Part shown: positions 15,553-57,988 of the stretch, piece after piece
Numbering within the stretch: the first letter of the stretch is position 1
Layout: every line of letters begins with the position of its first letter
Made by a program: the position numbers and the translations under genes
Assembly (NCBI GenBank): GCA_028382965.1
Contig: JAOEUK010000001.1
Span: 531,001 to 595,000, forward strand
DNA from: Candidatus Puniceispirillum sp.
Lineage (GTDB): Bacteria; Pseudomonadota; Alphaproteobacteria; Puniceispirillales; Puniceispirillaceae
Direction: 5' to 3'
Length of the DNA stretch: 64,000 bases
The notes under the pieces: model-generated
The model's database searches: none
What the model saw: the letters and a program-made list of their open reading frames with translations, nothing else
What the model was told of the DNA's origin: nothing

Positions 15553-15584
15553 TTTGGCCCGGCTATTTTTTGGAGGCGACTATA

Positions 15585-16367: not shown

Positions 16368-16413
16368 TATCTCATCTGTTTTATTCTTGCTGGAATTTTT
16401 AGCCCTGTCTGCC

Positions 16414-33290: not shown

Positions 33291-33298
33291 AATCTTTG

Positions 33299-33335: not shown

Positions 33336-33358
33336 AGTTTTTTAAAGAGTTCTCTAAA

Positions 33359-34276: not shown

Positions 34277-34281
34277 ACGCC

Positions 34282-35163: not shown

Positions 35164-35172
35164 GGACAAAAA

Positions 35173-39942: not shown

Positions 39943-40222
39943 TATAACTGTCTCCCAAATTCGACTTAGTCTGATAATTAAAAAAGTTTCTAACAAATGA
40001 TAAGATTATTCGAATGAAAAAGGGAAGTCGAATCTGAATTTGTGATCTAACTTTACTGGTAATTCCGCTTCAGTTTCTTTAATGATTTTTTTCTCCCTTA
40101 ATAGACAGATTTGTTTGATAAGGTCTAAGCGTTAAAAGAACATGTTATTGGGCGTTTCAAAGTTCATAGTATCTCTTGAGTTATGGAATTGTATTTTTTT
40201 TACAGAAGTTGAGGAATCTTTT

Positions 40223-41365: not shown

Positions 41366-41468
41366 AGCCTTGTACTTAAAAATTTCCGAAAAGGGGCGCT
41401 TGAGTCTGCTGCTTTGCAGGAAATTGATAAAACTGTCACTATGAAGCTTAGGCAATTGGGGGTATTTT

Positions 41469-42002: not shown

Positions 42003-42038
42003 ATATTCATCAAATTTTTGTAAAATCGCATGTGGACC

Positions 42039-43298
42039 TCAATTTTGCGCTGTAATGGTTTTCATAATGCTCAAGAATTTAGCCACTTCAGCAATACTAT
42101 TGTAATGACACATTGAAACTCGAATGCAGCTATCGACGCCAAGTGGGTCAAGAATGTTGCCTGAATAGTGATCGGCCTTACGAAGGTGGGTTCGGATACC
42201 CTCTTGGTTCAAGTGAGCAACTATATCAATGGAGGCGATGCCATCAACATAAATTGAAACAAGGCCTTCACGGGCAGGGTTGTCTGCACCACCAATGATA
42301 TGAACATTCCCCATTTCAGCCAGTCCGGGCAAATTACCGGTGCCATGAATCATGGCTTTAGTCAGTGTTTGTTCATGGTCATGAATGGCGTCACTAGCAG
42401 ACTTAAAGCGAGCGCTTCGCTCTGGGCTAGTGCAAATCTTGCTGCCGAGCCATTCGATATATTCAACAACATCAGACATAGTTGCATAGGCTCCAGTATC
42501 GCGGGTGCCAAGCTCCCAATTTTCGGCTGGACCTCCAACAAGACTGTCATGCGGCAGTGCCGCCATTCTGTCAGAAATCCATGCAAGCCCATATCCATGT
42601 CTTGAAAACATTTTATATGGTGAAATGACATAGCCATCAATATCATATGAGCTGATGTCTATCTGCCCATGAGCGGCGTGTTGGATGCCATCAACAATAA
42701 TAAAGCAATCAGGATTTACTGCACGAATGGCTTTGGTAATAGCCGGCACATCCATTCCCATTCCGGTTACTGGTGATGTGTGCAGGATGGTTGCAACATG
42801 CGTATCTTTCGTAACTTGGTTTGCATAGGCTTGGGTGGTGACTAGCCCAGCATCATCATCATGCTTGATCAGCACATGTTCCTTGCCGCTAATCGTTGCC
42901 CACCTTGCGCTCGCGCTTCGTGTTGCTGGATGCTCAACTGTTGACCCTAGAACAACCCCACTTTTGGCTGTGCCAAGACAGGCATTCATAATAAGCCGGA
43001 AAATGAGTTCGGTTCCACTCTCCCCAACAAAGAACTGTCCGGATGGAGCATTCATAAAGGCTCGCAGATCTTTTTTGGCCTTATCAATCACCCGCATCAG
43101 TTCATGTGATCCCGGATTGTCGCGCCCCTGATTATCAGGGATGGCGGCAAATTTGGCTGAGGTTTCCACTGTCTTTTTAAGGGCCAAAGCCCCACCAGCA
43201 TTTTCAAAGAATACGCGTGGCCCTTGAACGGGGCAGGCGTCGATTTGCGCAAATTGACTGCGAATATCACCAAGTAGATTGGCGGAAATTTTCGTCAT
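42039..43298 (-). CDS. Class V PLP-dependent enzyme (cysteine-desulfurase-like)
   Basis: 419 aa. The PLP lysine is Lys229 in YVISPYKMFSRHGYG. The cofactor-binding Asp203 and His207 lie in IIVDGIQHAAHG, and a cofactor-phosphate segment in SGTELIFRL (about 94-101). FFENAGGALAL near the start is the usual opening of the family (FLNNAGGG-like), and GPAENWELGTRDTGAYATMSDVVEYIEWLG is the substrate/dimer segment. The closest general group is the 'cysteine desulfurase family protein' (VC1184-type), whose substrate is undefined and which differs from IscS/SufS. No isc or suf gene is adjacent. It stands between a convergent cupin and a divergent photolyase-like gene. Confidence 0.86.
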   Translation of the reverse strand: MTKISANLLGDIRSQFAQIDACPVQGPRVFFENAGGALALKKTVETSAKFAAIPDNQGRDNPGSHELMRVIDKAKKDLRAFMNAPSGQFFVGESGTELIFRLIMNACLGTAKSGVVLGSTVEHPATRSASARWATISGKEHVLIKHDDDAGLVTTQAYANQVTKDTHVATILHTSPVTGMGMDVPAITKAIRAVNPDCFIIVDGIQHAAHGQIDISSYDIDGYVISPYKMFSRHGYGLAWISDRMAALPHDSLVGGPAENWELGTRDTGAYATMSDVVEYIEWLGSKICTSPERSARFKSASDAIHDHEQTLTKAMIHGTGNLPGLAEMGNVHIIGGADNPAREGLVSIYVDGIASIDIVAHLNQEGIRTHLRKADHYSGNILDPLGVDSCIRVSMCHYNSIAEVAKFLSIMKTITAQN

Positions 43299-45059: not shown

Positions 45060-45578
45060 ATGATCGTAACCATTACTGCATTGTTGCTTTTAGTCCAAAC
45101 ACCCATGTCGCAATTGACAAAAAATTGTGACATGGAGGCCTCACTGGAAGCTGACCCAGTCCATTTATCTGCGCCAGTTGCTTTTGATGCAATTGAATCA
45201 AAATCTGCGATTGAAGTATGTTTGGGAGCGCTCTCTAATAGGTTAGACAAGCAAACGCGCGGTCGAATATGGTTGCAGCTTGGAAGGGGTTATCTCAAAA
45301 ATCATCAAATCAGTAATGCTAAATCGGCTTTTGAGAAATCTGTTAGCCATGGCTACGGTGCCGGTTATTTTGCGCTTGGAGTTATGTATTGGCTAGGTGA
45401 CGATATAAAGAGAGACCCCGATTTGGCAAAAGCTTATCTTGAAGAGGCCTATTCTAACGGAGTTTTTTGGTCGGCTAAAATATTACAAGATCTTTATGAT
45501 GATCAAGAATCACACCTATATGACAAGCCTCTAGCAGATTATTACGAGAAGACTTGGTCTGAATTCGTTTTAAATTAA
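45060..45578 (+). CDS. Sel1/TPR-like repeat protein, probably exported
   Basis: 172 aa. The first 15 residues (MIVTITALLLLVQTP) form a short hydrophobic segment that could be a signal peptide or anchor. ARGYL-like and GRGYLKNHQISNAKSAFEKSVSHGYGAGYFALGVMYWLGDDIKRDPDLAKAYLEEAYSNG reads as one TPR followed by a Sel1-type repeat; the pattern of small residues (A-x2-LG-x-MY-x-G) and the D-x-A-KA-x-x-Y-x-EEA step are diagnostic. Such proteins are protein-interaction scaffolds. The gene lies 31 bp after the photolyase homologue on the same strand and may be co-transcribed. Its partner is unknown. Start ATG 45060 lacks a strong ribosome-binding site. Confidence 0.6.
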   Translation: MIVTITALLLLVQTPMSQLTKNCDMEASLEADPVHLSAPVAFDAIESKSAIEVCLGALSNRLDKQTRGRIWLQLGRGYLKNHQISNAKSAFEKSVSHGYGAGYFALGVMYWLGDDIKRDPDLAKAYLEEAYSNGVFWSAKILQDLYDDQESHLYDKPLADYYEKTWSEFVLN

Positions 45579-45981
45579 ATTTTTACCTGATCGTTATGAT
45601 TGTCTGAGTTTCAGAGAGTCTTTGCTTTGTTAGCCGCCAAAGGCCCTTTTTTTGTTATCGACTATGAGCTAGATACAATTTAAAATTAAATATTGTTGAT
45701 TGAGCACAAAATTCTTCCAAGCTTATATAAATATATTTATTTACTTTTAGTAATTTACTGCTTGTTTTAATGGGTGATATCACACTACGATTTCGATCGA
45801 ATTGTGGGCTGCATTCAGCCGACTTTGGAACGGACAAGCAAGGTTTCTCTGATTTTAACACAAATTATTCAGTTGGTTTTTTTCCTTGATTTGTCCGGTA
45901 AAGCATTTTCTGAAAAAATGCACAAAAGGCATTGCTCTTATAATGTTTTGCTTAATTGAAATAACTGTAGTGGAGAGACTC
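45579..45981. other. Intergenic region before the TRAP operon
   Basis: 403 bp without a convincing gene; the short frames in it are shadows with no composition signal. It is AT-rich around 45680-45760 and should carry the promoter of the TRAP/dehydrogenase operon. TCTGA-GTT-TCAGA near 45604 is a small hairpin that could end the Sel1-like transcript, but the T tract is poor. Confidence 0.45.
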
Positions 45982-46977
45982 ATGAAATATTTAGGTAAGC
46001 TGTTTGCAACAGCTTTGGTTTCATTACTTGCAATGGGCGGTGTAGCTCAAGCGCAAGATATGAAATTTTTTAGAATTGGTACTGGCGGAGCTGGAGGCAC
46101 TTACTTTCCTATTGGCGGCTTGATCGCCAATGCGATTTCCAGTCCACCAGGAGCTAGATCCTGTGAAAAAGGTGGCACATGTGGAGTGCCCGGATTGATC
46201 GCCATTGCTGTTTCAACGAATGCATCTGTGTTCAATATGAACGCTGTTCAGGCAGGAAATCTTGAAGCTGGTTTGGCTGGTGGACAAAGCGTGGCCCAAG
46301 GTTATGAGGGAACGGGTAAATTTAAAGGTGACAAGAAAGACAAAGTCCGGATAATTGCCAATCTTTATCCTGAGGATATGCACCTTGTTCTTCCAAAAGG
46401 AACAAAGATGAATAGCCTCAAAGACCTTGAAGGAAAGAAGGTTGGAGTTGCGTCAGCTGGTTCTGGAACTCAGGTTTCTGTAAAAATGATTCTGAAGCAT
46501 TATGGCATTTCAGTAAAGGAAAACGAATTGGGACTTAATCAAAGCGCCCAGAGGCTTGCTGATGGTCAGATTGATGCATTTTTCTATGCTGGCGGCACAC
46601 CATTTGCTGCATTGATCCAGCTTGGATCACAAAAAGGATTTGAGCTCTATAATTTCTCAGCTTCAGAGCGAAAAGAAATCAACAAAATCATCCCTTATTA
46701 TGTTGAGTCAAAAATCCCTGCCGGAACCTATGAGACAATCGGGTACGACGTTGCAACAGTTGCTGTTAATGGCCAACTTGTAACATCTATTGATCAGCCA
46801 ACTGATTTGATCTACGGCATCACAAAAGCATTGTGGAGCAAAAAAACAAGGAGCCTGCTTGATAAAGGGCATTCTAAAGGTAAGGCAATCCAGCTAAATA
46901 CCGCGCTGAAAGGCGTTCTCATTCCAGTTCATCCTGGCGCTGAGAAGTTTTACAAAGAACAAGGTATGATGAAGTAA
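45982..46977 (+). CDS. TAXI-family TRAP transporter, substrate-binding protein
   Basis: 331 aa from the ATG at 45982 (GGAG at 45972-45975); the open frame runs 32 codons further upstream without support. A clean signal peptide ends at AQA, about residue 24. The TAXI opening FFRIGTGGAGGTYFPIGGLIANAIS is diagnostic, followed by VSTNASVFNMNAVQAGNLEAGLAGGQSVAQGYEG and the KDLEGKKVGVASAGSGTQVSVKMIL strand. This periplasmic protein delivers its ligand to the fused permease encoded next. TAXI systems use a sodium-type ion gradient rather than ATP; known ligands include glutamate and other carboxylates or amino acids. A perfect 10-bp hairpin with a T tract lies between it and the permease gene. Confidence 0.95.
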   Translation: MKYLGKLFATALVSLLAMGGVAQAQDMKFFRIGTGGAGGTYFPIGGLIANAISSPPGARSCEKGGTCGVPGLIAIAVSTNASVFNMNAVQAGNLEAGLAGGQSVAQGYEGTGKFKGDKKDKVRIIANLYPEDMHLVLPKGTKMNSLKDLEGKKVGVASAGSGTQVSVKMILKHYGISVKENELGLNQSAQRLADGQIDAFFYAGGTPFAALIQLGSQKGFELYNFSASERKEINKIIPYYVESKIPAGTYETIGYDVATVAVNGQLVTSIDQPTDLIYGITKALWSKKTRSLLDKGHSKGKAIQLNTALKGVLIPVHPGAEKFYKEQGMMK

Positions 46978-46990
46978 GATTCCACTTTTG

Positions 46991-47040
46991 AAGTTGCAGA
47001 GGCCCTTAAGGCAAGGTGTTTCTGCAACTTTGTTTTTTTT
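46991..47040 (+). terminator. Terminator/attenuator behind the TAXI binding-protein gene
   Basis: Perfect stem AAGTTGCAGA (46991-47000) / TCTGCAACTT (47021-47030), 20-base loop that may fold internally, then TGTTTTTTTT. It lies 14 bases after the stop codon and before the permease gene, so binding protein can be made in excess. Confidence 0.85.
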
Positions 47041-47082
47041 AGTGATTTGATTTTTTATAAAAAAGTCTCCGAGGTTGCGTTA

Positions 47083-49176
47083 ATGGCTGAGCTGGATATC
47101 AAGAAAGCAGAAGAGCTGGAGGAGAAGTACGACTCCGGGCTTCAAACACGTGTCATTGGGCCATATTTGGTGAAATTTACCTATTATTTCTCAATATTGT
47201 TTGCCGTATATCATTACGTCACCGCGGGGATTGGAGTGCCTATTGATTACTGGCACATGGGCTCGCACATGGCTGGCGTCATGGTTCTGGTTTTTATTGG
47301 ATTTCCTGCCTTTCGTAGTAAAAAAGGTGGTCAACTGCGCCCCAATAGTTGGTGGATATATGGCAATGTGCCCATTTGGGATTGGCTCTTTATTATTGCC
47401 GGTGTAGCATCAGCTTATTATGTAGGAATAACATGGTATGAAATTGACTTTGAATTTCTGGGGGGCAGATTTCAACTTTCTGATCAAGTAATGCGTCAGG
47501 GCAATCCTGCTACAATTGACGTTGTTTTTGGTACAGCACTGGTTGTTGTTTTGCTTGAGGCTGTTCGAAGGACACTCGGTATCGTTGTGCCAATTATTAT
47601 TGGTATGTTTATAGTCTATGCCGTTTTCGGCATGTATATGCCGTTTCAAATTCTAAAACACCCTGGTGTTAACTGGAACCTTTTCATCAACAACATGTAT
47701 TTCCCTGAGGAGGGTATCTTTGGAGTGACGCTGTGGATTGTCTCGACAGTTGTGTTTCATTTTGTGCTGTTCGGAATTCTTGCACAAAGGATGGGGCTGG
47801 GACAATTCTTTGTTGATGTTGCAACAGTTGCTGCAGGTCGTTACACAGGTGGTTTGGCTAAGGTAAGTGTGGTTTCTTCAGCTTTTTTTGGAACGATTTC
47901 TGGATCGTCGATCGCAAATACTGTTTCCACAGGCTCTTTGACAATTCCGAATATGAAGCGGATGGGATATCCGGGGCATCTTGCGGGTGGTGTTGAAGCT
48001 GCTTCTAGTGCGGGTGGCCAGATTACGCCGCCTATCATGGGCGCTGCTGCATTTGTGATGGCAGAATTCCTTGCAGTTCCGTACACGACTATTATTTTGG
48101 CGGCACTGGTTCCGGCTTCGATGCATTATGTTGGCGTGATGTCGATTGTCCACTTCAAGGCTAAACGTCTCGGTCTGAAAGGCATGCCTGCGTCTGAGAT
48201 TCCAAAATTGTGGGATGTGGTTAAACGGGGGTGGCCAACTGCTATACCTTTGGCTGTACTGATCTACGTTTTATTCAGTGGCTACTCACCTCATATGGCG
48301 GCATTTTGGGGTATTACGACTGCCTTGGCGGTTGGTTTTATCAACCCAATGCACCGTATCGGTATCAAAGACGTAATGGATGGCTGTGTAACTGGGGTGA
48401 AATATGCCCTTGCTGTTGGCGCTGTATGTTCAGCGATTGGTATCGTTGTTGGTGTTGTGAATACAACAGGCCTTGGTTTTAGGCTTGGCTTCATGGTAGC
48501 AGAAGTGGCAGTGAACTTTGGTGAGTCAACCTTGCCGTTAATAGCCTGGGTTCCACTGGCGGATTTCAGCCTGCAGGATCTTACGCTATTTATCTCTCTT
48601 GTTATGATCGCAATCACTTGTATTTTCATGGGTGCTGGCCTGCCAACAACTGCCCTGTACATAATGCTTGCAACTGTTGCCCAGCCTGCACTTGGTAATC
48701 TTGGTGTGCCACCACTAGCAGCACATCTATTTGTGCTATACTACGGCGTTATTTCTGAAATCACACCGCCGGTTTGCGCGTCTGCCTATGCGGCGGCCGG
48801 CATTGCCGGGGCAAACCCATTTAAGACCGGTTTATCAGCGTTTTCACTTGGCATTGGCAAGCTTTTGGTGCCAATGGTATTTGTTTATTCGCCAGCCATG
48901 CTAATCGTCCTTGATGATTATTTCACTTGGGCTGAGTTTTTTCAAACTACAACAACATGTGCTATTGGCGTATTCATGCTCTCTGCATCAGTCGCTGGCT
49001 ATTTTTTAGTGTCCATGAATGGTCCTAGCCGCGTAATGTTTGCGCTGGCGGGGTTGCTTCTGGTGTCTCCTAGTACAACAGCACTGCTATACGCAGTGCT
49101 GTTGGCATCGCCAGTCTTAGCGCATCAGTTCTATGAGCGCTATTTGAAAAAAGAGCAGCAAACGAGGGGGACTTGA
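47083..49176 (+). CDS. TRAP transporter, fused 4TM/12TM permease (TAXI-associated)
   Basis: 697 aa from the ATG at 47083 (GAGG at 47071-47074); the frame can start at 47047 but lacks a ribosome-binding site there. It fuses the small (DctQ-like, first about 180 residues) and large (DctM-like) membrane subunits into one polypeptide, as is usual for TAXI systems. Diagnostic segments are GTISGSSIANTVSTGSLTIPNMKRMGYPGHLAGGVEAASSAGGQITPPIMGAAAFVMAEFL, here cut for length, and MGAGLPTTALYIMLATVAQPAL in the second half. About 16-18 helices are expected. The stop TGA overlaps the TTG start of the cupin gene by 3-4 bases, so it is translationally coupled to the catabolic genes that follow. The substrate is probably an amino-acid-like compound. 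Confidence 0.95.
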   Translation: MAELDIKKAEELEEKYDSGLQTRVIGPYLVKFTYYFSILFAVYHYVTAGIGVPIDYWHMGSHMAGVMVLVFIGFPAFRSKKGGQLRPNSWWIYGNVPIWDWLFIIAGVASAYYVGITWYEIDFEFLGGRFQLSDQVMRQGNPATIDVVFGTALVVVLLEAVRRTLGIVVPIIIGMFIVYAVFGMYMPFQILKHPGVNWNLFINNMYFPEEGIFGVTLWIVSTVVFHFVLFGILAQRMGLGQFFVDVATVAAGRYTGGLAKVSVVSSAFFGTISGSSIANTVSTGSLTIPNMKRMGYPGHLAGGVEAASSAGGQITPPIMGAAAFVMAEFLAVPYTTIILAALVPASMHYVGVMSIVHFKAKRLGLKGMPASEIPKLWDVVKRGWPTAIPLAVLIYVLFSGYSPHMAAFWGITTALAVGFINPMHRIGIKDVMDGCVTGVKYALAVGAVCSAIGIVVGVVNTTGLGFRLGFMVAEVAVNFGESTLPLIAWVPLADFSLQDLTLFISLVMIAITCIFMGAGLPTTALYIMLATVAQPALGNLGVPPLAAHLFVLYYGVISEITPPVCASAYAAAGIAGANPFKTGLSAFSLGIGKLLVPMVFVYSPAMLIVLDDYFTWAEFFQTTTTCAIGVFMLSASVAGYFLVSMNGPSRVMFALAGLLLVSPSTTALLYAVLLASPVLAHQFYERYLKKEQQTRGT

Positions 49177-49532
49177 CGCATCCGGTCTCGCGCAATACGC
49201 AGAAGGCTTATAAATGGAGTGATGGCGGTGTTGGCTGGCCACTCGTCGAGGCCGGAGGCTTTCTTGTGATTGAAGAAACGCTTGCACCTGGCTGCGGCGA
49301 AAAACATCATTATCACAATCAAGCTGAACAATGTTTTTACATGTTAGCGGGGTGTGCTGTGATGCAGTTGGCTGATGGCCAGCATGTTGAGATTGACACA
49401 GGCATGGCTATAAATATTACACCTAAAACCATTCATGCAATTGTTAATCAAACGGACAAAGAAATTCGTTTTTTGGTCATGTCGGCGCCATCATCGCGTG
49501 GTGATCGGCATGAAGTGGAACAGGAAAAATGA
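49173..49532 (+). CDS. Small cupin-domain protein
   Basis: 119 aa. TTG start at 49173 overlapping the permease stop (TTGA), with GAGGGGG seven to three bases upstream. A single cupin: motif 1 is GCGEKHHYHNQAEQCFYMLAGCAVMQL, with the ligand His pair in HHYHNQAEQ and Glu, and motif 2 is INITPKTIHAIVNQT, with the third His. Its metal site appears complete, so it could be a metal-binding sensor, isomerase or dioxygenase. The gene overlaps the next, DadA-like gene by 4 bases (ATGA). Being locked between transporter and dehydrogenases, it probably works on the same compound. No reaction can be assigned from sequence. Confidence 0.85.
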   Translation: MTHPVSRNTQKAYKWSDGGVGWPLVEAGGFLVIEETLAPGCGEKHHYHNQAEQCFYMLAGCAVMQLADGQHVEIDTGMAINITPKTIHAIVNQTDKEIRFLVMSAPSSRGDRHEVEQEK

Positions 49533-50785
49533 CACTGCCGGAAAGCAGGATAGATGTTGCTGTTGTTGGTGCGGGCATTATTGGCGTCTGTACCGCGCTT
49601 GAACTTGCTGAACGTGGTATGAAGGTTACTATTTTTGACCCTGCGCCGGTATGTAGCAAAACTAGCTATGGAAATGCTGGCGTTATCTCGCCTTGGACTT
49701 GTGTTCCGCAATCAATGCCGGGTTTGTGGAAGCAGGTTCCAGGCTGGTTGATTGATCCTGATGGACCGGTTTCAATCCGTCCCGGCTATTTGCCAAAGTT
49801 ACTGCCGTGGGTTTTGCGGTTTATTGCTGCGGGGCGGCCTGAGCGTCTTGACCCTGTAGCAGATGCTTTGTTTCGTCTAAGTAAAGGCAGCGTTGAAGCT
49901 TATAAAAAGCGACTTTCAGGGACAGGAAAAGAACAGCTTGTTCAAGACTCCTTATATGTTCATGTCTATCGAAACCGTAATTCTGCATCGCTAGACCATT
50001 TGGGCTGGCAGTTAAGAAGATCACGCCAGGTACCAGTTGAACTAATTGATAAGGTGTCTTTGAAAGAAATTGAACCTGATATATCAGATGATTATGAGGC
50101 AGCCATTTTAATAAAACAGCAAGGACGTACCAATGATCCTGCCGGTGTTGGGGTTGCATTAGCGGAGAAAGCTCTTGCCAAAGGCGCCAGCCATATTCAG
50201 GCCAAAGTTCAAAAGATCTATCCAGATAACGGCGCAGGTTGTAAATTGGTCACGGATCAAGGTGAATTTAGGGCAAAAAAAATTGTACTAGCAGCGGGCA
50301 TATGGTCCTGTGAGCTGCTGAAGAGTTTTGGCCTCAAACTGCCGCTAGAGGCAGAGCGTGGCTATCACCTGGTTCTCCGCAATCCAGGCATTACAATCAA
50401 CAATTCTGTTATGGATGCTGAACAAAAATATGTAGCTAGTTTGATGGCAGCGGGCGTTAGAGTTGCTGGCACAGCGGAGTTTGCTGGCCTAGATGCGGCG
50501 CCGAATTATGCGCGTGCAAAACGTTTTGCAAATCAGGCTAAAAAGCTTTTTCCACAGCTTAACTGTGAGGAACCAGATGAATGGATGGGATCACGCCCTA
50601 GCTTTCCTGACAGCCTTCCTTGTCTTGGTGAAATTCCTGGTGTCAGAAATATCATAGCTGCTTTTGGGCATTCACATTATGGGTTGGGGATGGCGCCTGG
50701 TACTAGTGAGATTGTAGCTGATTATGTTACGCAAAGAATAACTGGTGACTCCATTTCACCCTACAGCATCATGCGGTTCCAATGA
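49529..50785 (+). CDS. FAD-dependent D-amino-acid dehydrogenase-like protein (DadA family)
   Basis: 418 aa. FAD-binding motif VAVVGAGIIGVCTALEL at about residues 10-26, then the DadA signature KTSYGNAGVISPW and, at the C-terminus, MGSRPSFPDSLPCLGEIPGVRNIIAAFGHSHYGLGMAPGT. The length is normal for DadA (about 410-430). It should oxidise a D-amino acid or other alpha-amino acid and reduce a quinone. It overlaps the preceding cupin and the next DAO-like gene by 4 bases each (ATGA), so all three are translationally coupled. It is closely similar in layout to the AUA-start protein at 6346. The substrate is inferred only broadly, from the transporter and the heteromeric dehydrogenase beside it. Confidence 0.92.
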   Translation: MTLPESRIDVAVVGAGIIGVCTALELAERGMKVTIFDPAPVCSKTSYGNAGVISPWTCVPQSMPGLWKQVPGWLIDPDGPVSIRPGYLPKLLPWVLRFIAAGRPERLDPVADALFRLSKGSVEAYKKRLSGTGKEQLVQDSLYVHVYRNRNSASLDHLGWQLRRSRQVPVELIDKVSLKEIEPDISDDYEAAILIKQQGRTNDPAGVGVALAEKALAKGASHIQAKVQKIYPDNGAGCKLVTDQGEFRAKKIVLAAGIWSCELLKSFGLKLPLEAERGYHLVLRNPGITINNSVMDAEQKYVASLMAAGVRVAGTAEFAGLDAAPNYARAKRFANQAKKLFPQLNCEEPDEWMGSRPSFPDSLPCLGEIPGVRNIIAAFGHSHYGLGMAPGTSEIVADYVTQRITGDSISPYSIMRFQ

Positions 50786-51897
50786 AGGCTGCTGTTAAAT
50801 CCAACTTTGATGCCATTATTGCTGGCGCTGGCTTGATTGGTCTCTCTATTGGTTATGGCCTGTCACGCCGAGGAATGTCGGTTCTCATTCTTGATGGTGA
50901 AGATACAGCTATTCGGGCTGCACGGGGGAACTTTGGACTGGTATGGGTGCAGGGTAAGGGCGCCTATTTTCCACCATATGCTGATTGGACAATGCGGTCA
51001 TCTGAGCTGTGGCCAAAATTGACTGATGAGCTTCAAGAAATAGATGGGCCAGAAATAGGCCTGCATCAAGATGGGGGGCTCACCATCTGTCTTAGTGAAG
51101 CAGAAATGCAAAAGCGGTTTGAGAAGTTGGACCATCTTCGCGCGCATCAGAATGGTCGTTTTCGATTTGAGATGCTAGACCGTGCCACGTTAAAAGACAT
51201 TATGCCTGGTATAGGTCCTCAAGTTGTAGGGGCTGCCTATTGCGCTCATGATGGGCATGTAAACCCGCTTTATTTGATGCGTGCTTTACAAAATGGAGTA
51301 GTCAAAAATGGTGGTGTTTGTATTTCCAATACACCTGTCCAAGACATTTGTAAAAGTGGCACTAGTATCCGCGTTTGCACAAAAGATGGTGATTTTGAAT
51401 GCCAGAGGCTGGTTCTTGCAGCAGGGCTTGCAAATGCTACCCTCGCCCCAAAGGTTGGCTTGCGGCAGTCCTTAAGGCCACAAAAGGGACAGATTGTTGT
51501 TACTGAGAAACTCGAGCAGCAATTGCCGTTGCCAACATTACTTTTGCGACAAACTGACGAAGGTGGGTTGATGATAGGTGATAGCCATGAGGACACTGGA
51601 TTCGAAACCAGCGTAACACCTGATGTTGTTAGCGGAATTGCAAACCGTGCGCTTGCTACCTTGCCAGGATTGGCTGATGTTGGGGTGGTTCGTAGTTGGG
51701 CAGCGCTTCGAGTGATGTCAAAAGATGGTTATCCAATTTATGATCAGTCAGAAACTATGTCAGGTGCTTTTGCAGTATCATGCCATAGTGGTGTAACTCT
51801 CTCGGCCGCACATGCGCTTGATCTTGCCAGCTATATTGCTGAAGGTAGACTTGGACAAGAGCTTGATGGATTTTCTCAGAGGCGGTTCAATGTTTAA
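50782..51897 (+). CDS. FAD-dependent oxidoreductase, DAO family (HcnC/beta-subunit-like)
   Basis: 371 aa. FAD motif AIIAGAGLIGLSIGYGLSRRG at about residues 11-31. The middle contains HVNPLYLMRALQNGVVKNGG, the usual DAO-family turn before the second flavin-binding strand (RLVLAAGLANATLAP). The C-terminus has VVRSWAALRVMSKDGYPIYDQSE followed by the GVTLSAAHALDLASYI flavin-closing helix. Length and wording match the catalytic beta subunits of HcnABC, D-hydroxyproline dehydrogenase and opine oxidases. The gene overlaps the DadA-like gene by 4 bases and the ferredoxin gene by 8, so it is built into the operon. A second protein of the same type lies at 53566, giving two candidate beta subunits for one alpha/gamma pair. 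Confidence 0.88.
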   Translation: MKAAVKSNFDAIIAGAGLIGLSIGYGLSRRGMSVLILDGEDTAIRAARGNFGLVWVQGKGAYFPPYADWTMRSSELWPKLTDELQEIDGPEIGLHQDGGLTICLSEAEMQKRFEKLDHLRAHQNGRFRFEMLDRATLKDIMPGIGPQVVGAAYCAHDGHVNPLYLMRALQNGVVKNGGVCISNTPVQDICKSGTSIRVCTKDGDFECQRLVLAAGLANATLAPKVGLRQSLRPQKGQIVVTEKLEQQLPLPTLLLRQTDEGGLMIGDSHEDTGFETSVTPDVVSGIANRALATLPGLADVGVVRSWAALRVMSKDGYPIYDQSETMSGAFAVSCHSGVTLSAAHALDLASYIAEGRLGQELDGFSQRRFNV

Positions 51898-52186
51898 AAC
51901 AACTACCTCACAAAGTGGCAGAGCTGTTCATCTTTCTTTCGAAGGTGAGGTAATTGCTGCCTTTGATGGTGATAATGTTGCTGCGGCACTTTTACGAGTT
52001 GGAAAATTACAGTTTCGGACTGCAGCAAAAAATGATGGGCGTGGTCCCTATTGTATGATGGGTGTTTGTTTTGAATGCCTAGTTGAAATTGATGGCAAGC
52101 CAAATCAGCAAGCTTGCCAAATAATAATTCGTGATGGCATGCAAATCCGCCGGCAGCAAGCGCCTAATATTACCAGTGAATTGTAA
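51890..52186 (+). CDS. (2Fe-2S) ferredoxin-like subunit, HcnA/gamma-subunit type
   Basis: 98 aa from the ATG at 51890 that overlaps the previous stop by 8 bases; the open frame upstream lies inside that gene. The iron-sulfur motif is Cys55-x4-Cys60-x2-Cys63-x12-Cys76 (GPYCMMGVCFECLVEIDG ... QACQ), the Fer2_4 pattern of HcnA and of sarcosine oxidase alpha and proline dehydrogenase gamma parts. The short strand FEGEVIAAFDGDNVAAALL is the usual ubiquitin-like start. It should shuttle electrons between the FAD sites of the alpha and beta subunits. It precedes the HcnB-like gene by 9 bp. It is small enough to be missed by automatic annotation. Confidence 0.93.
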   Translation: MFKTTTSQSGRAVHLSFEGEVIAAFDGDNVAAALLRVGKLQFRTAAKNDGRGPYCMMGVCFECLVEIDGKPNQQACQIIIRDGMQIRRQQAPNITSEL

Positions 52187-52195
52187 GGTAGGCAG

Positions 52196-53578
52196 ATGAA
52201 AAAAAAGCATTTTCAGGTGGTTGTCATTGGAGCAGGGCCTGCCGGCATGGCGGCGGCAATCACTGCAGCAAAAGCAGGTCTCAAGACTATTGTGATTGAT
52301 GACCAAAGATCTATTGGCGGTCAGGTTTACCGGAGCATTCAGGCTAATAGTGACACTCCACCTCAATATCTTGGTAACAGTTATTATGCTGGTACAAAGC
52401 TGTCTGAGGACTTTGCCTGCTGTGGGGCTAGTTACTTGCCTGGTTGCACTGTTTGGCAGATTACTGAAACTCATGAAATTGCGCTTGTCTACAGTGGTAA
52501 AGCTGAATTAATTACAGCTGAATATATTGTTATTGCTACTGGTGCTATTGAACGACCAATGCCTGTGCGTGGGTGGACATTGCCTGGTGTTATGAGTGTT
52601 GGTGGCGCGCAGACGTTGTTAAAACAATCTGCACTTGGCGCCGATGATGCGGTTTTTGTTGGTTCGGGACCACTGTTATACCTAACTGCATGGCAGTATA
52701 TTAAAGCTGGAATGGCTGTCAGAGCTGTCATTGACATCACTGGAACCACGCAATGGCGATCTGCATTTCCATTTGCACCGTTGGCATTAATACAACCCAA
52801 TATGCTGTTAATGGGACAAAAGTGGTTACGTGAGATCCGTCAGAAAACAAAAATTATAACCAATGTTAAAGAGGTTGAAATCAAAGGCCAGTCATGTGCT
52901 GAGGCGGTATCTTATACTCTCTCATCGGGCACCAAGATTGATCTACCTGCATCGCATGTGTTTTTGCATCAGGGTGTTGTTCCAAATGTTAACCTTTCAA
53001 TGGCAACTGGCCTTGATCACCGATGGGATCAGAAGGCATTTTGCTGGCGACCTGTGACTGATACAAAAGGAAAATCGTCTGACGAGCAGATTTATATTAC
53101 CGGTGATGGAAGTGGTATTGGTGGCGCAAAAGCTGCAGAAATTTCGGGGAGATTAGCTGCAAGAGCAATTATGAAACGTTTTGGAAAATTCAATTTTTTA
53201 AAAGAGCTGTATTACAAATTGCGGTATTTACATTGTCTAAGTATCAGGCCATTTCTTGACCGTCTTTATCTGCCGCCAGTCCATTTTCGTCTGCCCCAGA
53301 GCAATGATACAATTATATGTCGCTGTGAGGCTCTAACCAAATCTGATATTTTTGATGCACTTGCAAGTGGAGCGACTGGACCAAACCAATTAAAGGCTTT
53401 TTGCCGAGCTGGAATGGGGCGGTGCCAGGGAAGAAATTGTGGATTAATTGTTCAGGAAATGATTGCTGTTCATACCAGTCAGTCGATGGCAGAAACCGGT
53501 TACTACCGCCTACGTCCACCTGTTAAACCAATCACACTCGCCGAGCTTGCCAGTCTTGAGGGGCCATGGCCAGAATAG
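52196..53578 (+). CDS. FAD/NAD(P)-binding oxidoreductase with C-terminal BFD [2Fe-2S] domain (HcnB/OoxA-like alpha subunit)
   Basis: 460 aa. N-terminal FAD motif VVVIGAGPAGMAAAITAAKAG and IDDQRSIGGQVYR (about 6-50), a second nucleotide site GADDAVFVGSGPLLYLTAWQ around residues 150-170, and LPGVMSVGGAQTLLKQ as the conserved link. The C-terminal domain carries Cys375-x-Cys377 (ICRCEAL) and Cys410-x4-Cys415 (GRCQGRNC), a BFD-type [2Fe-2S] centre. This organisation is that of HcnB, opine oxidase OoxA and the alpha subunits of D-hydroxyproline dehydrogenases. With the ferredoxin and DAO genes it completes an alpha-beta-gamma amino-acid dehydrogenase. The stop is 13 bases inside the next gene. Cyanide synthesis is possible by family, but dehydrogenation of an imported imino or amino acid is more likely. 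Confidence 0.92.
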   Translation: MKKKHFQVVVIGAGPAGMAAAITAAKAGLKTIVIDDQRSIGGQVYRSIQANSDTPPQYLGNSYYAGTKLSEDFACCGASYLPGCTVWQITETHEIALVYSGKAELITAEYIVIATGAIERPMPVRGWTLPGVMSVGGAQTLLKQSALGADDAVFVGSGPLLYLTAWQYIKAGMAVRAVIDITGTTQWRSAFPFAPLALIQPNMLLMGQKWLREIRQKTKIITNVKEVEIKGQSCAEAVSYTLSSGTKIDLPASHVFLHQGVVPNVNLSMATGLDHRWDQKAFCWRPVTDTKGKSSDEQIYITGDGSGIGGAKAAEISGRLAARAIMKRFGKFNFLKELYYKLRYLHCLSIRPFLDRLYLPPVHFRLPQSNDTIICRCEALTKSDIFDALASGATGPNQLKAFCRAGMGRCQGRNCGLIVQEMIAVHTSQSMAETGYYRLRPPVKPITLAELASLEGPWPE

Positions 53579-54690
53579 CTGGGGTTTCTGCAACCAGACC
53601 GGTTGTGATCATAGGCGCGGGAATTCAAGGCTGTGCGGCAGCCTATTTTTTAAGTCAACGTGGCCAGCCAGTTATTGTTTTGGAAAAGGACTATGTTGGA
53701 CGTCACGCTTCAGGAGTGAATGCTGGAGGTGTTAGGCGCCTCGGACGTGATATTGCTGAAATTCCGCTATCGCTTGCCGCGATGGACTGGTGGAATCAGA
53801 TCGATCAATTGCTTGATATTGAAGATGGATTTCACCGGCAATCCTATGTCAAAGTGGCGCTTGATGCTACTGCATCTAACCTTGCAGCAAGTAGAATACA
53901 GCAATTACAGAAGGCTGGTTTTAACCATGAAACATGGGTCGATCCTGGCCAGCTGCACCAGCGTATTCCTCATTTGACAAAATCTGTTCTTGGCGGGGTG
54001 ATCGTCGAGGGCGATGGGTGGGCCCTACCTTGGAAAATTACTCGTGCATTTTATGATAAGGCTGTCTCCCTTGGCGCTGAATTTCAGATGCCGGTTGAAG
54101 TGCAGTCACTTAATTATTTTGGTGATCACTGGCAGGTAACAACTGATGCCGGCAGGATTGAGGCAGATATAGTCGTCAATTGTGCTGGCGCGTGGGGTGC
54201 ACAGATTGCCCAAATGGGAGGTGATTGTTTGCCAATTGAGGCACATGCACCAATGCTGGTAATTACGGATCGTCAGCCAATGTTTTTGGACGCGGTAATA
54301 GGTGTTATGGGGGACACCCTCTCATTCAAGCAGCTTGATAATGGGTCAATGGTTATTGGCGGTGGCATACGTGGCATTGCAAGCCCAGCGCAGAATAAAA
54401 CCCAAATTACTCCCAATGGTCTTAGTACATTTGTGATGACAGCGGGCCGAGTCTTTCCTCAATTGCGGGATGTTGCCATTTTACGTGCGTGGGCTGGAAT
54501 TGAAGGTTACACAAATGACAATTTGCCAATCATCGGGCTGGGGAGCCAACCGGGGATTATTCATGGCTTTGGATTTTCGGCTCACGGCTTTCAGCTTGGT
54601 CCTGCAGTTGGTGAGGTTTTAGCAGATCTCGTTATGGCAAGACAGCCTCGTGTCAATATTTCCCCTTTTTCGCCTCAGCGATTTAACTGA
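53566..54690 (+). CDS. FAD-dependent oxidoreductase, DAO family (HcnC/beta-subunit-like)
   Basis: 374 aa. FAD motif VVIIGAGIQGCAAAYFLSQRG at about 10-30, then LEKDYVGRHASGVNAGGVRRLGRD, the G-x-N-AGG-V-R signature of the HcnC/sarcosine-oxidase-beta/D-hydroxyproline dehydrogenase group. The end is LRAWAGIEGYTNDNLPIIGLG and GFSAHGFQLGPAVGEVLADLV, the canonical flavin-binding close. Compared with the other DAO protein (50782), this one is closer in its first 60 residues to genuine beta subunits. It starts 13 bases inside the alpha-subunit gene, a strong sign of stoichiometric synthesis. It is the last gene of the operon; a convergent oxidase follows 30 bp later. Confidence 0.9.
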   Translation: MARIAGVSATRPVVIIGAGIQGCAAAYFLSQRGQPVIVLEKDYVGRHASGVNAGGVRRLGRDIAEIPLSLAAMDWWNQIDQLLDIEDGFHRQSYVKVALDATASNLAASRIQQLQKAGFNHETWVDPGQLHQRIPHLTKSVLGGVIVEGDGWALPWKITRAFYDKAVSLGAEFQMPVEVQSLNYFGDHWQVTTDAGRIEADIVVNCAGAWGAQIAQMGGDCLPIEAHAPMLVITDRQPMFLDAVIGVMGDTLSFKQLDNGSMVIGGGIRGIASPAQNKTQITPNGLSTFVMTAGRVFPQLRDVAILRAWAGIEGYTNDNLPIIGLGSQPGIIHGFGFSAHGFQLGPAVGEVLADLVMARQPRVNISPFSPQRFN

Positions 54691-54720: not shown

Positions 54721-56016
54721 TCACTTTGTAGTTGTCTTGAACTTATCCTGAAATGCGTAAAAATTCATTGCAAGAGGAAGAAACCATGGGTCGCCTGAAT
54801 AAAATGGCATCGTTCGAAAGGGGATGTTTTGAAATTCGCTGCCGTTAAGATCATTAAGCACCATAAGTGCTGCTTTTTGTCCTAACCAGCGCGCCCATAC
54901 CGTTCCAGATCCACAGAAACCGGAAGGATAAAACACTCCATCATGCACTGCTAATTTTGGCAGTTGATCAAATGGAAATGCAACGAAGCCAAACCAGTGA
55001 TTAGAGATGCTTGCATCAGAAAGCTGGGGAAAAATTGACGTTAAGCCTTTGACAAGACGATTTCGGGCCTTTACTGGGTCAGCGCTCATGCGACGTCCAC
55101 CCAACAAAACTCTTTTTCCATCTGGGGATGGCCTGTAATAATGACCAAGCTGCAAAGCCTCACTGTACATATTCATGCCAGGCATCAGGCTTCGGACCAT
55201 ATTTTCTCCAAGTTCTTCAGTCGCAATCATTTCAGAAATCACGGGCACTAATCGGCGGCGAAGCCATGGCTGACTTGAGTCAGTATAGGCATTTGTGGCA
55301 CTGATTACGTGGCCGGCTCGAATTGTTCCTCGGGTAGTTTCGACACAAAAATTTTGGTCTGTTGATGCTTGTTTATTCTGACTTACTGACAGTACCTTTG
55401 TTTGTGTTGATATTTTTACTAACTCTGCGCGTGCAACTTTGCACATGCCTGCGAGCAGTTTTGCTGGATGAATACCACTAATGTCGTCTCGTAGTACCCC
55501 GCCACAATAGCGTGGAGTATCAATACAATTAGGCAAATTGGCTTGATCATAAATTGTAGACTCAATATCTAATAATTTATCTAACTTGTCAGCTTCACGC
55601 TTCATCCCCTCTAGGGATTCTGGACGCAATGCACCAACCAACCTTCCACAAGATTGTAAATCACAGTCGATTTCTTCAGTATTAATGAAGTTAAAAAGGT
55701 CCGCACGTGCTGTTTTTGCTTCACGATAAAAAGCTATCGCTTTTTCTTTGCCAAATCGTTTTGATAACTTATCAAATGAAAGACGTATGTTACCACTGGT
55801 GATGCCGCCATTCCTGGTGGAAGCACCTGAGCCGATCTGATCACGCTCTATAATGACAACATCAAGCCCTGCTCGAGCTAATGTTATAGCTGCACCAAAT
55901 CCAGTATAGCCTCCGCCGATAATTACCACATCAACCTGATTTGGCCAGCTTTCAATTTGAAAATCTTGTGGGGGAGCGGCATTCCACCAATAGGGATCAG
56001 AAGAAATGTTTGGCAT
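54721..56016 (-). CDS. FAD-dependent oxidoreductase (PuuB/gamma-glutamylputrescine oxidase-like)
   Basis: 431 aa. After a 25-residue lead (DPYWWNAAPPQ, typical of PuuB-type enzymes: S-Y-W), the FAD motif VDVVIIGGGYTGFGAAITLARAG is followed by ERDQIGSGASTRNGGITSGN, the PuuB version of the family's ASGRNGG loop with Thr in place of Gly. Later segments CGGVLRDDISGIHPAKLLAGM, VISATNAYTD and NHWFGFVAFPFDQLPKL complete the DAO fold. PuuB oxidises gamma-glutamylputrescine and related secondary amines with release of H2O2. Here there is no PuuA glutamine-synthetase-like ligase nearby, so the substrate may be another amine. A divergent Ggt-family gene starts 365 bp away, with a palindromic operator candidate between. 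Confidence 0.88.
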   Translation of the reverse strand: MPNISSDPYWWNAAPPQDFQIESWPNQVDVVIIGGGYTGFGAAITLARAGLDVVIIERDQIGSGASTRNGGITSGNIRLSFDKLSKRFGKEKAIAFYREAKTARADLFNFINTEEIDCDLQSCGRLVGALRPESLEGMKREADKLDKLLDIESTIYDQANLPNCIDTPRYCGGVLRDDISGIHPAKLLAGMCKVARAELVKISTQTKVLSVSQNKQASTDQNFCVETTRGTIRAGHVISATNAYTDSSQPWLRRRLVPVISEMIATEELGENMVRSLMPGMNMYSEALQLGHYYRPSPDGKRVLLGGRRMSADPVKARNRLVKGLTSIFPQLSDASISNHWFGFVAFPFDQLPKLAVHDGVFYPSGFCGSGTVWARWLGQKAALMVLNDLNGSEFQNIPFRTMPFYSGDPWFLPLAMNFYAFQDKFKTTTK

Positions 56017-56380
56017 GATTTTATCCTTTCTTAGATATGCCCCGTGTTACGATGACACAATAATAAGATCTCTTCTAATTACCATTGCTTGCTGTTACCC
56101 AAATATTACACGATTGTAATACAATCTAGTAGCTGATTTTCAGCTGTCCCAATACTAAACGATTGAAGCTAAGCATCTACCTGTTTGAACAATATTTTTA
56201 CTTCCTTTGCAATTAGTGGAGAATCGTCCTGATTAAATTTTGCACCCCAGAGATTCGCGTAACCTGTATTTTCAGATCTAAAGGTACCATTGACAGATTA
56301 AGTCAAGAAGTGAAATCTTATTATCCAATTATAATTACCAGTTTCTTAAATTTTTAGTAGCACGTTAAAGGATGTTTCAA
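56017..56380. other. Divergent intergenic region (PuuB-like / Ggt-like) with symmetric elements
   Basis: 364 bp without a gene. It holds GATTGTA-A-TACAATC (56112-56126) and AGCTGA-TTT-TCAGCT (56131-56145), two perfect inverted repeats only four bases apart, about 100-130 bp from the PuuB-like start and 235-270 bp from the Ggt-like start. AAAGGA at 56367-56372 serves as ribosome-binding site for ATG 56381. The rest is AT-rich without recognisable elements. Confidence 0.5.
56112..56126. promoter_or_regulatory. 15-bp palindrome GATTGTAATACAATC, operator candidate
   Basis: Seven-base arms around a single central A, perfect dyad, in the divergent region between a PuuB-like and a Ggt-like gene. 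Size and symmetry fit a dimeric helix-turn-helix repressor site (GntR- or TetR-like). No regulator gene lies next to it, so the cognate protein is unknown. Confidence 0.45.
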
Positions 56381-57988
56381 ATGAAAAAAGGTATGGTATG
56401 TGCACCTCAACCTGAAGCTGTAGAAGCTGGCGCATTAGTTCTGAAGTCGGGAGGGAATGCAATCGACGCGGCCATTGCCACAGCTTTGACCCAAACCGCT
56501 GTAGATCCATTCATGTGTGGCATAGCTGGATTTGGTTCGATGCATGTTTATTTGCCAAAATTGGGCACCCATCAATGCCTTGATTTTCATGCGCGTGCTC
56601 CAAGAAGTGTAAGGCCTGACATGTGGGAAGATAAACTTGTCCAAGAATGTGAAGATGGATTTGGGTTTATTCTGGAAGGAAGGATTAATGAGGTTGGCTA
56701 TCAATCAATCGCAACGCCAGAAAGTCTGCGGGCCTATGCTGTTGCATTAGAAAAATGGGGCACCAAGACGTTAGCTGAAGTTATCCAGCCAGCTATTGAT
56801 TATTTGAGAGATGGGTGGATGATCCGTCCACATGTAAGACGATTTTGGGAACAGGTTGAACCAGGAGGGAGAGTTGAGCATATTGAATATCTCCGGGGTT
56901 CACCAGCTACAGCAAAAATTTATCTTAACTCTGATGGCACCATGAAGAATATGGGAGATGTCATTCGCAACCCTGATTTGGCAAAAACATATCAACGGAT
57001 CGCAGAGTTTGGTGCACAAGACTTTTATGAGGGTGAAATAGCTAGAAAGATTGTGGCCGACATGGAAGTCAATGGTGGTTTAATTTCTGGGGATGATCTG
57101 AAGCACGGCAAACCTGAGGATACAGAGCTTCTTTGGACGGATTATCGTGGTTATCAAATTGCTTCAAGTCCACCACCAGGTGGTGGAGTTATGGTTTTGC
57201 AAATATTAAATATACTTGAGAATTTTGATTTGAGTTCCTTGGGTCATAATAGTCCAGAATATATTCGTGTTTTAGTGGAGGCGATGAAGACTGCGACTGT
57301 AGATAAAGATCGCCATGTTGGGGACCCTCGATTTGTGGATATCCCAATAGAAAAGCTATTATCAAAAAAGTATGCAAAGGAAATAGCTGATAAGATTAAG
57401 TCTGGTGAAAAAACTCACGTGCCGCGTTTGCAAAAAGGTGTTGATCAAAAAGAGACAACCCACGTTTGCACTGTTGATGGTGCTGGCAATTGTGTGAGTA
57501 TGACACACTCGATTGGAATGCCATCTGGTGTTGTGACTGAAGGTTTAGGTTTTGTTTACAACGGGTGTATGGGAGTTTTTGATCCTCGTCCTGGCATGAC
57601 TGGTTCTCTGGCACCTGGTAAGTCGCGCTTCACGTCTATGGCTCCAACAATGGTTTTTAAAGATAATAAACCTATGCTTCTAATTGGTGCCCCAGGGGGT
57701 ACATACATTGCAATGGGCGTTGTGCAAGGGATAGTAAACGTTATTGATTTTGGAATGGACGCAGAAAAAGCCGTAGCAGCTCCTAGATTTTCAGCTACTA
57801 GCGACATAATCGAAATAGTGAACCGAATACCACGGTTTGTTCAAGAAGAATTGGAGGCGCAGGGGTATCGTTTCCGGCGCTATCCCCTAGGATTTCATTT
57901 TGCTGGTGTTCATGCAATTAGAATTACTAAAGATGGGGTTGATGGTGGTGCTGATCCTGGACGTGATGGGATGGCATTATCGGTATAG
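56381..57988 (+). CDS. Gamma-glutamyltransferase-family Ntn hydrolase, cytoplasmic, atypical substrate site
   Basis: 535 aa from the ATG at 56381, chosen over ATG 56372 because AAAGGA is then properly spaced and MKKGMVCAPQPEAVEAG aligns with the start of the paralogue at 27739. No signal peptide. Catalytic Thr359 in KETTHVCTV, GAPGGTY loop kept. As in its paralogue, the gamma-glutamyl-binding residues are lost: DFHARAP for DFREMAP (Arg114), NGCMGVF for NNQMDDF (Asp433), FTSMAPT for LSSMSPT (Ser462, Ser463 partly). Motif wording, residue lengths and the whole central part (GGGVMVLQILNILENFDLSSLGHNSPEYIRVLVEAMKTATVDKD, here read as blocks) parallel the 27739 protein closely. So the pair comes from a duplication or shares a dedicated substrate class. 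It is divergent from a PuuB-like oxidase. Confidence 0.9.
   Translation: MKKGMVCAPQPEAVEAGALVLKSGGNAIDAAIATALTQTAVDPFMCGIAGFGSMHVYLPKLGTHQCLDFHARAPRSVRPDMWEDKLVQECEDGFGFILEGRINEVGYQSIATPESLRAYAVALEKWGTKTLAEVIQPAIDYLRDGWMIRPHVRRFWEQVEPGGRVEHIEYLRGSPATAKIYLNSDGTMKNMGDVIRNPDLAKTYQRIAEFGAQDFYEGEIARKIVADMEVNGGLISGDDLKHGKPEDTELLWTDYRGYQIASSPPPGGGVMVLQILNILENFDLSSLGHNSPEYIRVLVEAMKTATVDKDRHVGDPRFVDIPIEKLLSKKYAKEIADKIKSGEKTHVPRLQKGVDQKETTHVCTVDGAGNCVSMTHSIGMPSGVVTEGLGFVYNGCMGVFDPRPGMTGSLAPGKSRFTSMAPTMVFKDNKPMLLIGAPGGTYIAMGVVQGIVNVIDFGMDAEKAVAAPRFSATSDIIEIVNRIPRFVQEELEAQGYRFRRYPLGFHFAGVHAIRITKDGVDGGADPGRDGMALSV

Follow-up and report, generated by a model that had tools for sequence, protein, structure and literature searches.

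A TAXI-TRAP importer joined to an opine-dehydrogenase-like enzyme: a candidate uptake-and-oxidation operon in Candidatus Puniceispirillum

The window analysed here is a 64,000-nucleotide stretch of DNA from Candidatus Puniceispirillum sp., part of contig C1; the whole genome measures 2.38 Mb, is 99.6% complete and, judged by its named relatives, belongs to SAR116. Between 45982 and 54690 it carries eight genes, all on the + strand, that place an importer beside several flavoenzymes. An earlier note, made from the letters alone, had named these genes; their content, strand and positions were all confirmed and their families matched, using Pfam and NCBIfam profiles with curated cut-offs. The first (45982-46977) encodes a TAXI-family TRAP solute-binding protein of 331 residues with a signal peptide, of the importer type called A below. 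It scores 273.5 bits against TIGR02122 (TRAP_TAXI; cut-off 84.35) and 243.5 bits against PF16868, its closest solved structures are other TAXI proteins, and its predicted structure has a mean pLDDT of 78.6 and a pTM of 0.78. The second (47083-49176, ATG at 47083) encodes a fused TRAP permease (QM) of 697 residues that reaches 620.4 bits against TIGR02123 (TRAP_fused; cut-off 320.65) and also matches PF06808; these matches were computed on 47086-49173 and the start was read separately. Binding protein and fused QM permease, adjoining and both above curated cut-offs, make this a TAXI-TRAP transporter. There follow a small cupin (49173-49532; 119 residues, TTG start; PF07883, Cupin_2) and a DadA-like FAD dehydrogenase (49529-50785; 418 residues; PF01266, DAO), which scores 190.1 bits against PRK00711, below the D-amino acid dehydrogenase cut-off of 383.

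The last four genes are called B1, C, A and B2. B1 (50782-51897; 371 residues; DAO family, kin to OoxB) is a predicted catalytic beta subunit of type 1, C (51890-52186; PF13510, Fer2_4) a gamma subunit of the [2Fe-2S] ferredoxin kind, A (52196-53578; 460 residues; PF07992, Pyr_redox_2; PF04324, Fer2_BFD; PF17806, SO_alpha_A3) an alpha subunit with FAD and BFD-type [2Fe-2S] sites, and B2 (53566-54690; 374 residues; DAO family, kin to 1y56_B) a predicted second catalytic beta subunit, of type 2. A PuuB-like FAD oxidoreductase gene (54721-56016, - strand; PF01266) lies convergent, 30 nt past B2. The TAXI and permease genes are 105 nt apart; the next four junctions are overlaps of 4, 4, 4 and 8 nt, followed by a 9 nt gap between C and A and a 13 nt overlap of A with B2, so that beta, gamma and alpha genes are contiguous. 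The overlaps of 4, 4, 8 and 13 given earlier are real, and the list was one short of five. A promoter and terminator scan gave no clear excess over shuffles (promoters 21 against 18.2, standard deviation 4.0; terminators 16 against 12.4, standard deviation 3.4).

The earlier note likened the enzyme to HcnABC and D-hydroxyproline dehydrogenase, and a place in the superfamily of these two and opine dehydrogenase is borne out by cofactor motifs: G-X-G-X2-G is present in alpha and beta, R-X-W in both beta subunits, and C-X4-C-X2-C-X12-C in gamma, where the published motif is C-X4-C-X2-C-X11-12-C (PMC4575208, cited here and below for its available text). The window's alpha subunit reads C-X-C-X32-C-X4-C against a published spacer of X15-20 (PMC4575208); X32 is also found in the Palleronia and Thioclava alphas, and in five of seven reference alphas the motif search halted at an extra Cys. 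In that source, OdhB-C-A of Pseudomonas putida, which carries FAD, FMN and [2Fe-2S], acts as a nopaline dehydrogenase, and Bradyrhizobium japonicum OdhB1-C-A-B2 has two unrelated beta subunits, each of which assembles with the shared alpha and gamma to give an octopine dehydrogenase (PMC4575208). Because the window has the B. japonicum layout, the DAO that had been regarded as separate from the enzyme is probably a second catalytic subunit. The note had also counted a single beta subunit, at 53566-54690. That gene stands as a beta candidate, but B1 (50782-51897) is a second one and keeps company with the ferredoxin and alpha genes, staying beside them even in L044, L045 and L047, where no B2 homologue was found.

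Kinship points the same way. Among the best 30 of 559 plasmid matches, B1 is 47% identical to annotated OoxB, an opine oxidase subunit and the only specific name there; Palleronia, Azospirillum and Cupriavidus genes that bear no specific name are equal to it or slightly nearer. A tree of 56 beta-subunit sequences (35 of its 53 inner branches have good support, and the DadA and Agrobacterium leguminum rows are long-branched) puts B1 with annotated OoxB and first-position B genes, and B2 with second-position B genes, in separate type-1 and type-2 clades; its references are annotated OoxB and neighbours, the P. putida and B. japonicum OdhB proteins being compared by description only. The best solved relatives of B1 are glycine oxidases, and that of B2 is chain B of 1y56, an entry named sarcosine oxidase that we take to be an archaeal L-proline dehydrogenase complex. 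This fits the published likeness of type-2 beta subunits to archaeal L-proline dehydrogenase (PMC4575208). Layout, motifs and kinship to OoxB together suggest membership of the opine-dehydrogenase family. The four-gene set B1-C-A-B2 also occurs behind an ABC importer in Palleronia, Thioclava and Azospirillum, and in A. leguminum it shares a cluster with ABC genes and with a gene for an NAD-type octopine/nopaline dehydrogenase. Fourteen plasmid records are common to the best 30 B1 and best 30 B2 matches; in 13 the two starts are 2.77-2.90 kb apart, and in the fourteenth the matches belong to separate clusters. In Cupriavidus, B-C-A is accompanied by a TTT binding protein and B2 is missing; in Roseibium and Nitratireductor C-A-B2 occurs and B1 is missing.

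The same superfamily raises the question of hydroxyproline (or proline), with B-C-A acting as a D-hydroxyproline dehydrogenase. In genus g7, of the same family as the window genome, a TAXI protein and permease of 43-46% identity stand beside hydroxyproline genes and a B-C-A set whose B is 39-40% identical. At L024 (5321-12769) TAXI-permease is convergent to B-C-A, together with genes for a 4-hydroxyproline epimerase, a trans-3-hydroxyproline dehydratase, a DHDPS-like and a DadA-like protein; L025 likewise has both proline-racemase-family genes, and L026, which is cut, repeats the convergent TAXI-permease (43-44% identity in these loci) and B-C-A with proline-racemase-family genes and no DadA-like gene. 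This is probably a second pairing of the two modules, for hydroxyproline, and since the g7 TAXI gene adjoins a hydroxyproline set, TAXI and B-C-A may serve that compound elsewhere. The g7 B subunits of L024 and L025 indeed fall in the type-1 clade, but their identity to the window's is low. The window genome (G000) has no PF05544 match, and none of the 12 other B1 carriers of the genus, several of them incomplete, has one above cut-off; in G016, G026, G032 and G037, carriers of other genera, the proline-racemase match either lies over 260 kb off or sits on a different contig. With no proline-racemase-family protein in so complete a genome, the route from L-hydroxyproline that the earlier note had offered as an example is unlikely, and we set it aside. 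Direct import of D-hydroxyproline would be compatible with these data, yet overall we consider a hydroxyproline route improbable.

Gene order had been proposed as a check on whether importer and enzymes belong together, and it is kept in SAR116 relatives and, with rearrangements, in other alphaproteobacterial lineages. We searched 61 genomes with the alpha protein and retrieved 27 longer stretches, taking as genes open frames of at least 80 residues labelled by blastp against window or reference proteins, a procedure that short or broken genes may escape. The complete order TAXI-permease-(cupin)-DadA-B1-C-A-B2 is present in 11 of the 27 (L031, L032, L034-L038, L041-L043, L046). The cupin is an optional member, unseen in L042, L043, L067, L095, L128 and others, and the convergent PuuB-like gene comes next in 10 of the 11, the exception being L046. 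A further stretch, L048, matches this order, its permease and alpha frames being broken; contig ends truncate L030, L033, L039 and L040, and the other 11 are differently arranged or hold more distant homologues. In genome G010 (L062, L048), the permease and alpha genes are fragmented into several frames, through assembly error or decay. Across 136 genomes of the order, TAXI (at least 60% identity) occurs in 22, B1 (at least 50%) in 24 and both in 20. TAXI is found without B1 in G114 and G060, the latter having a 40% B1 homologue, and B1 without TAXI in G003, G047, G052 and G058. Of the 20 genomes with both, 18 have them on one contig, adjacent every time at a spacing of 3453-3848 bp; in G007 and G008 the two are carried by separate contigs. 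The claim that importer and enzymes are a conserved unit is upheld by this co-occurrence.

To look further afield we scanned with a TAXI alignment, one genome per species, which gave at least 421 relatives; the best 80 were analysed. They were divided into a close group (48 loci) and a sister group (32 loci) at 69% identity to the window TAXI, a split chosen after seeing the table, and the compared loci share descent, so that Fisher p values for co-occurrence are descriptive only. The two locus sets overlap: at least L062, L063, L065, L080, L083, L096 and L103 are contigs of G010, G005, G006, G012, G009, G028 and G032, respectively. The carriers are labelled Kiloniellaceae, Hyphomicrobiales, Rhodobacteraceae or Roseobacteraceae, and Rhodospirillales, and are mostly metagenome bins. 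Among loci with at least 8 kb downstream, B1 and alpha lie nearby in 21 of 26 in the close group and in 0 of 23 in the sister group; when flank length is ignored, the figures are 25/48 and 0/32. A PuuB-like gene is found no farther than 9 kb from TAXI in 20/48 close and 0/32 sister loci. In four loci (L085, L099, L106, L108) TAXI-permease-DadA and B1-C-A, without B2, are divergently oriented; L074 and L075 place B1-C-A-B2 before TAXI. A link between importer and enzyme that outlasts such rearrangement speaks for a functional tie. A divergent LysR gene is near TAXI in 31 of the 48 close loci (for example L032, 16894-17838). In the window, the corresponding interval (45579-45981) gave no LysR match better than E = 3.4, and homologues elsewhere in the genome are only 21-27% identical; a 172-residue gene (45060-45578) with no match in the stretches of five congeners occupies the LysR position. 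The window carries a reduced version of the locus, from which the LysR regulator is absent.

DadA is distributed differently, being present (at least 40% identity) in 21/26 close and 13/23 sister loci with at least 8 kb downstream. The sister group keeps permease and DadA in 14 of its 32 loci, with B1 and alpha in none, and each of the 15 best of 956 plasmid records for DadA, from Leisingera and Ruegeria, has a TAXI gene at a distance of 2.35-2.53 kb. On a Leisingera plasmid and on one of Parasedimentitalea, TAXI-permease-DadA is joined by an Asp/Glu racemase gene, and the cluster of Ruegeria pomeroyi DSS-3 is TAXI-permease-DadA. On these grounds TAXI-permease-DadA is the wider module, the opine-dehydrogenase-like complex marks the closer TAXI group, and the importer's most general partner is DadA rather than the HcnABC-like part. 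This makes room for another explanation, in which the importer serves DadA by taking up D-amino acids and the complex joined it afterwards to handle related N-substituted compounds. An Asp/Glu-racemase-family gene in 9/32 sister loci, against 0/48 close ones, would suit it, as would a D-cysteine-desulfhydrase/CuyA-like gene within 9 kb of TAXI (7/48 close, 2/32 other loci). But DadA, at 190 of 383 bits, falls well short of what the D-amino acid dehydrogenase profile requires, L087, L097 and L101 have TAXI-permease with B-C-A and no DadA match, and the CuyA-like gene is under both the CuyA and the D-cysteine desulfhydrase cut-offs. We give this explanation a modest chance of being right. A cysteate substrate was considered separately and rejected: the CuyA-like neighbour is 37% identical to a Ruegeria D-cysteine desulfhydrase, which by its place we presume to be CuyA (SPOA0158), and its scores of 297.8 and 285.6 bits are under the CuyA cut-off of 450. 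In several SAR116 loci CuyA-like and arginase-family genes stand in tandem beside LysR-TAXI (L041, 14122-16183; L067, 6853-8849).

The importer also has a history of its own. Six A-type and seven B-type TAXI sequences form groups (support 98/99 and 100/100) that cut across two SAR116 lineages, whereas the B1 tree recovers both lineages (100/100 for the window's group, 99/98 for the other). Accordingly, the window and L067 share 92% identity in TAXI and just 56% in B1, while B1 against TAXI identity is 96% against 78% for L080/L063 and 92% against 74% for L067/L128. The 12 TAXI-bearing genomes of the window's genus include seven of A-type and five of B-type, among the latter the single-contig genome G004; in the other lineage L067 is the sole A-type locus with enzymes, and a chimeric bin is possible there. 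Two mosaics mark the borders, with breakpoints placed by eye: L080 has a genus-type signal peptide on a B-type mature TAXI, and in the L067 permease the final block, some 100 columns long, has 86% identity to L128 and 66% to the window. It appears that mature TAXI and most of the permease (window 45982-49176) were exchanged in place between SAR116 lineages, with the enzymes following the lineages; the signal peptide of L080 would not be accounted for by differential loss of an old duplicate alone. A literature search by titles and abstract starts, of mostly non-subscription coverage and hence a weak negative, found among the papers listed no description of importer exchange or of TAXI combined with an opine-dehydrogenase-like enzyme. 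These observations bear on the objection that the eight genes adjoin by chance or through general amino acid metabolism and share no substrate. All the enzymes are indeed generic DAO-type flavoproteins of a large superfamily. However, the genes overlap, their order is kept across genera and, rearranged, more widely, the TAXI groups differ as sharply as 21/26 and 0/23 for B1 and alpha, and the importer was apparently exchanged in place while gene order stayed. We regard this reading of the eight genes as highly improbable.

What the importer might bind was approached through VcGluP, for which we used solved chain 8s4j, since all 14 checked residues of the published numbering fit it. VcGluP Tyr45, Ser75, Glu125 and Tyr200 are kept in the window TAXI as Tyr41, Ser82, Glu131 and Tyr202. 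The two residues that matter most in VcGluP are Tyr45 and Gln93 (PMC11574862, available text), and this pair was taken as the mark of the glutamate-binding subgroup; the window protein keeps the first and has Gly100, invariant in 16 of 16 aligned relatives, in place of the second. With Met201 also replaced, by Ala203, glutamate is unlikely to be the sole ligand. Between six A-type and eight B-type TAXI sequences, 51 of 306 mature positions share no residue; of 12 listed VcGluP-pocket equivalents only position 42 (Phe/Tyr) is among those 51, so a ligand difference between the types is neither shown nor excluded. The compound is most likely an opine-type or otherwise N-substituted amino acid, which we leave unnamed.

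Overall, we consider it probable, if far from certain, that the operon serves to take up and oxidise an N-substituted or D-configured amino acid, an opine-type compound being the likeliest. Gene content, conservation, motifs, the two-beta layout and the co-occurrence of importer and enzyme are observed; they suggest the following substrate class, electron path and division of labour. TAXI would capture the compound in the periplasm for import through the fused permease by ion-driven secondary transport, as shown for DctP-type TRAPs. B1 or B2, each docked on the shared C-A pair, would then oxidise a C-N bond of the compound with FAD, and electrons would reach the respiratory chain by way of FMN, [2Fe-2S] and FAD, as family knowledge and the available text of PMC4575208 suggest. 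Hydrolysis of the imine would yield an amino acid and a 2-oxo acid, and DadA and the PuuB-like enzyme may oxidise the released, or a co-imported, amino acid. Several observations weigh against an opine-type route. Five of the 26 well-flanked close loci (L076, L086, L088, L100, L107) lack B1 and alpha, B2 was seen in just 17 of the 48 close loci, many of them cut short, and in the sister group TAXI and DadA do without the heteromeric enzyme. Elsewhere B1 or alpha stands beside ABC importers or a TTT binding protein, or no neighbouring importer was seen (L044, L047). The type-1 clade takes in the L024 and L025 B subunits, from a hydroxyproline gene context, so kinship alone leaves the substrate unfixed. 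Finally, the further genes needed for octopine use show no consistent linkage.

This last point concerns one rival candidate, a guanidino opine such as octopine, which B1/B2-C-A would split to arginine and pyruvate, with an arginase-family ureohydrolase then releasing urea. A close ureohydrolase (64-78% identical to that of L041) is present in 8 of the 13 B1-carrying genomes of the genus; it lies directly past the PuuB-like gene in L062, L063, L080, L083 and L032, and its family occurs beside LysR/TAXI in L067, L094, L096 and L128, as well as next to TAXI in L068, a locus that showed neither B1 nor DadA. It is within 12 kb of TAXI in 9/48 close loci against 1/32 others, and the L058 octopine cluster joins OoxB-C-A with an arginase. 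The window genome nevertheless lacks the operon-linked enzyme (best 33%), and a search of four other B1 carriers of the genus, G006, G008, G013 and G014 (72-93% complete), gave none, while it is present in G002, where alpha and TAXI were not found; moreover, its scores of 141 and 148.8 bits are under the agmatinase cut-off of 174.3. Ornithine cyclodeaminase, tried as a post-octopine step, is above cut-off in 15 of 61 genomes and in only 5 of the 13 B1 carriers (G000, G003, G004, G005, G012), the match in G000, the window genome, being partial and on another contig, which indicates no clear coupling. A guanidino opine in particular is possible, though we think it rather unlikely.

Several neighbouring genes may be recorded here. 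Past the PuuB-like gene the window has a gamma-glutamyltransferase gene (56372-57988), and Thioclava locus L055 has one of that family (15354-16946) about 2.5 kb past B2. Upstream (40142-43298) lie a gene that we presume to be GcvT/DmdA-like, a cupin gene and an aminotransferase-V-like gene, the last two in the same place in several congeners. Farther upstream (31767-37022) is a five-gene set resembling, by sequence, a dipeptide-type ABC importer, flanked by amidase-like and M20-peptidase-like genes. In L023 (10509-19900) and L049, B-C-A follows dipeptide-type ABC importer-like genes with a 376-residue gene inside, as judged by eye. A second Parasedimentitalea plasmid (L052, 11965-21821) has a 60% TAXI gene 5-9 kb ahead of annotated sarcosine oxidase delta and gamma genes, which puts a further heteromeric amine oxidase close to a TAXI of this sort.

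TAXI-TRAP importers are widespread, but their known or postulated substrates are few, with glutamate the foremost (available text of PMC12344293 and PMC11574862) and phthalate among those postulated (available text of PMC6362003). A conserved tie to an opine-dehydrogenase-like enzyme offers a short list of candidate ligands for a whole TAXI subfamily, would indicate opine-like or other N-substituted amino acids as food of ocean bacteria, and, through the exchangeable A and B types, provides a natural experiment on importer specificity. A bolder proposal, which we put forward only tentatively, is that this TAXI group is, within the reach of our searches, the first TRAP-type importer dedicated to opine-like compounds, that the trait is widespread in marine Alphaproteobacteria, and that A and B types were swapped between genera by recombination, possibly changing the opine. 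If true, opine uptake and oxidation would be common among these bacteria rather than a trait of plant-associated ones.

Set against known systems, the operon is a mixture. D-hydroxyproline dehydrogenase, a heterododecamer (alpha4beta4gamma4), is of the same superfamily and subunit make-up (PMC4575208). The Hyp epimerase of its pathway, of the proline racemase family, was not found in the window genome. The genes of HcnABC hydrogen cyanide synthase run hcnA-B-C, and those of the window B-C-A(-B2). HcnABC has three subunits and again belongs to the superfamily (PMC4575208). Among importers, the window protein shares the TAXI family with VcGluP and TtGluBP and differs from them at Gln93 (Gly100) and Met201 (Ala203), and since its permease has no Pfam match beside DctM, it has no DUF3394 claw domain. 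The annotated Leisingera, Parasedimentitalea and R. pomeroyi DSS-3 clusters come close in TAXI (58-62% identical), permease (about 56%) and DadA (about 48-51%); their annotated genes include no B1-C-A-B2 and no PuuB-like gene, and neither occurs within 9 kb of TAXI in the sister loci. With the flavin opine dehydrogenases (OdhB-C-A of P. putida, OdhB1-C-A-B2 of B. japonicum, OoxB/A and NoxB/A) the window shares subunit set, B1-C-A-B2 order and the G-X-G-X2-G, R-X-W and gamma-subunit cysteine motifs, and with the B. japonicum type also the possession of one type-1 and one type-2 beta subunit; it differs from these systems in having no RidA gene in the operon. Described opine dehydrogenase clusters, as far as the available text of PMC4575208 goes, have ABC importers, and Cupriavidus a TTT binding protein. 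What is unusual in the window, compared with all these opine-dehydrogenase clusters, is a TAXI-TRAP importer with DadA.

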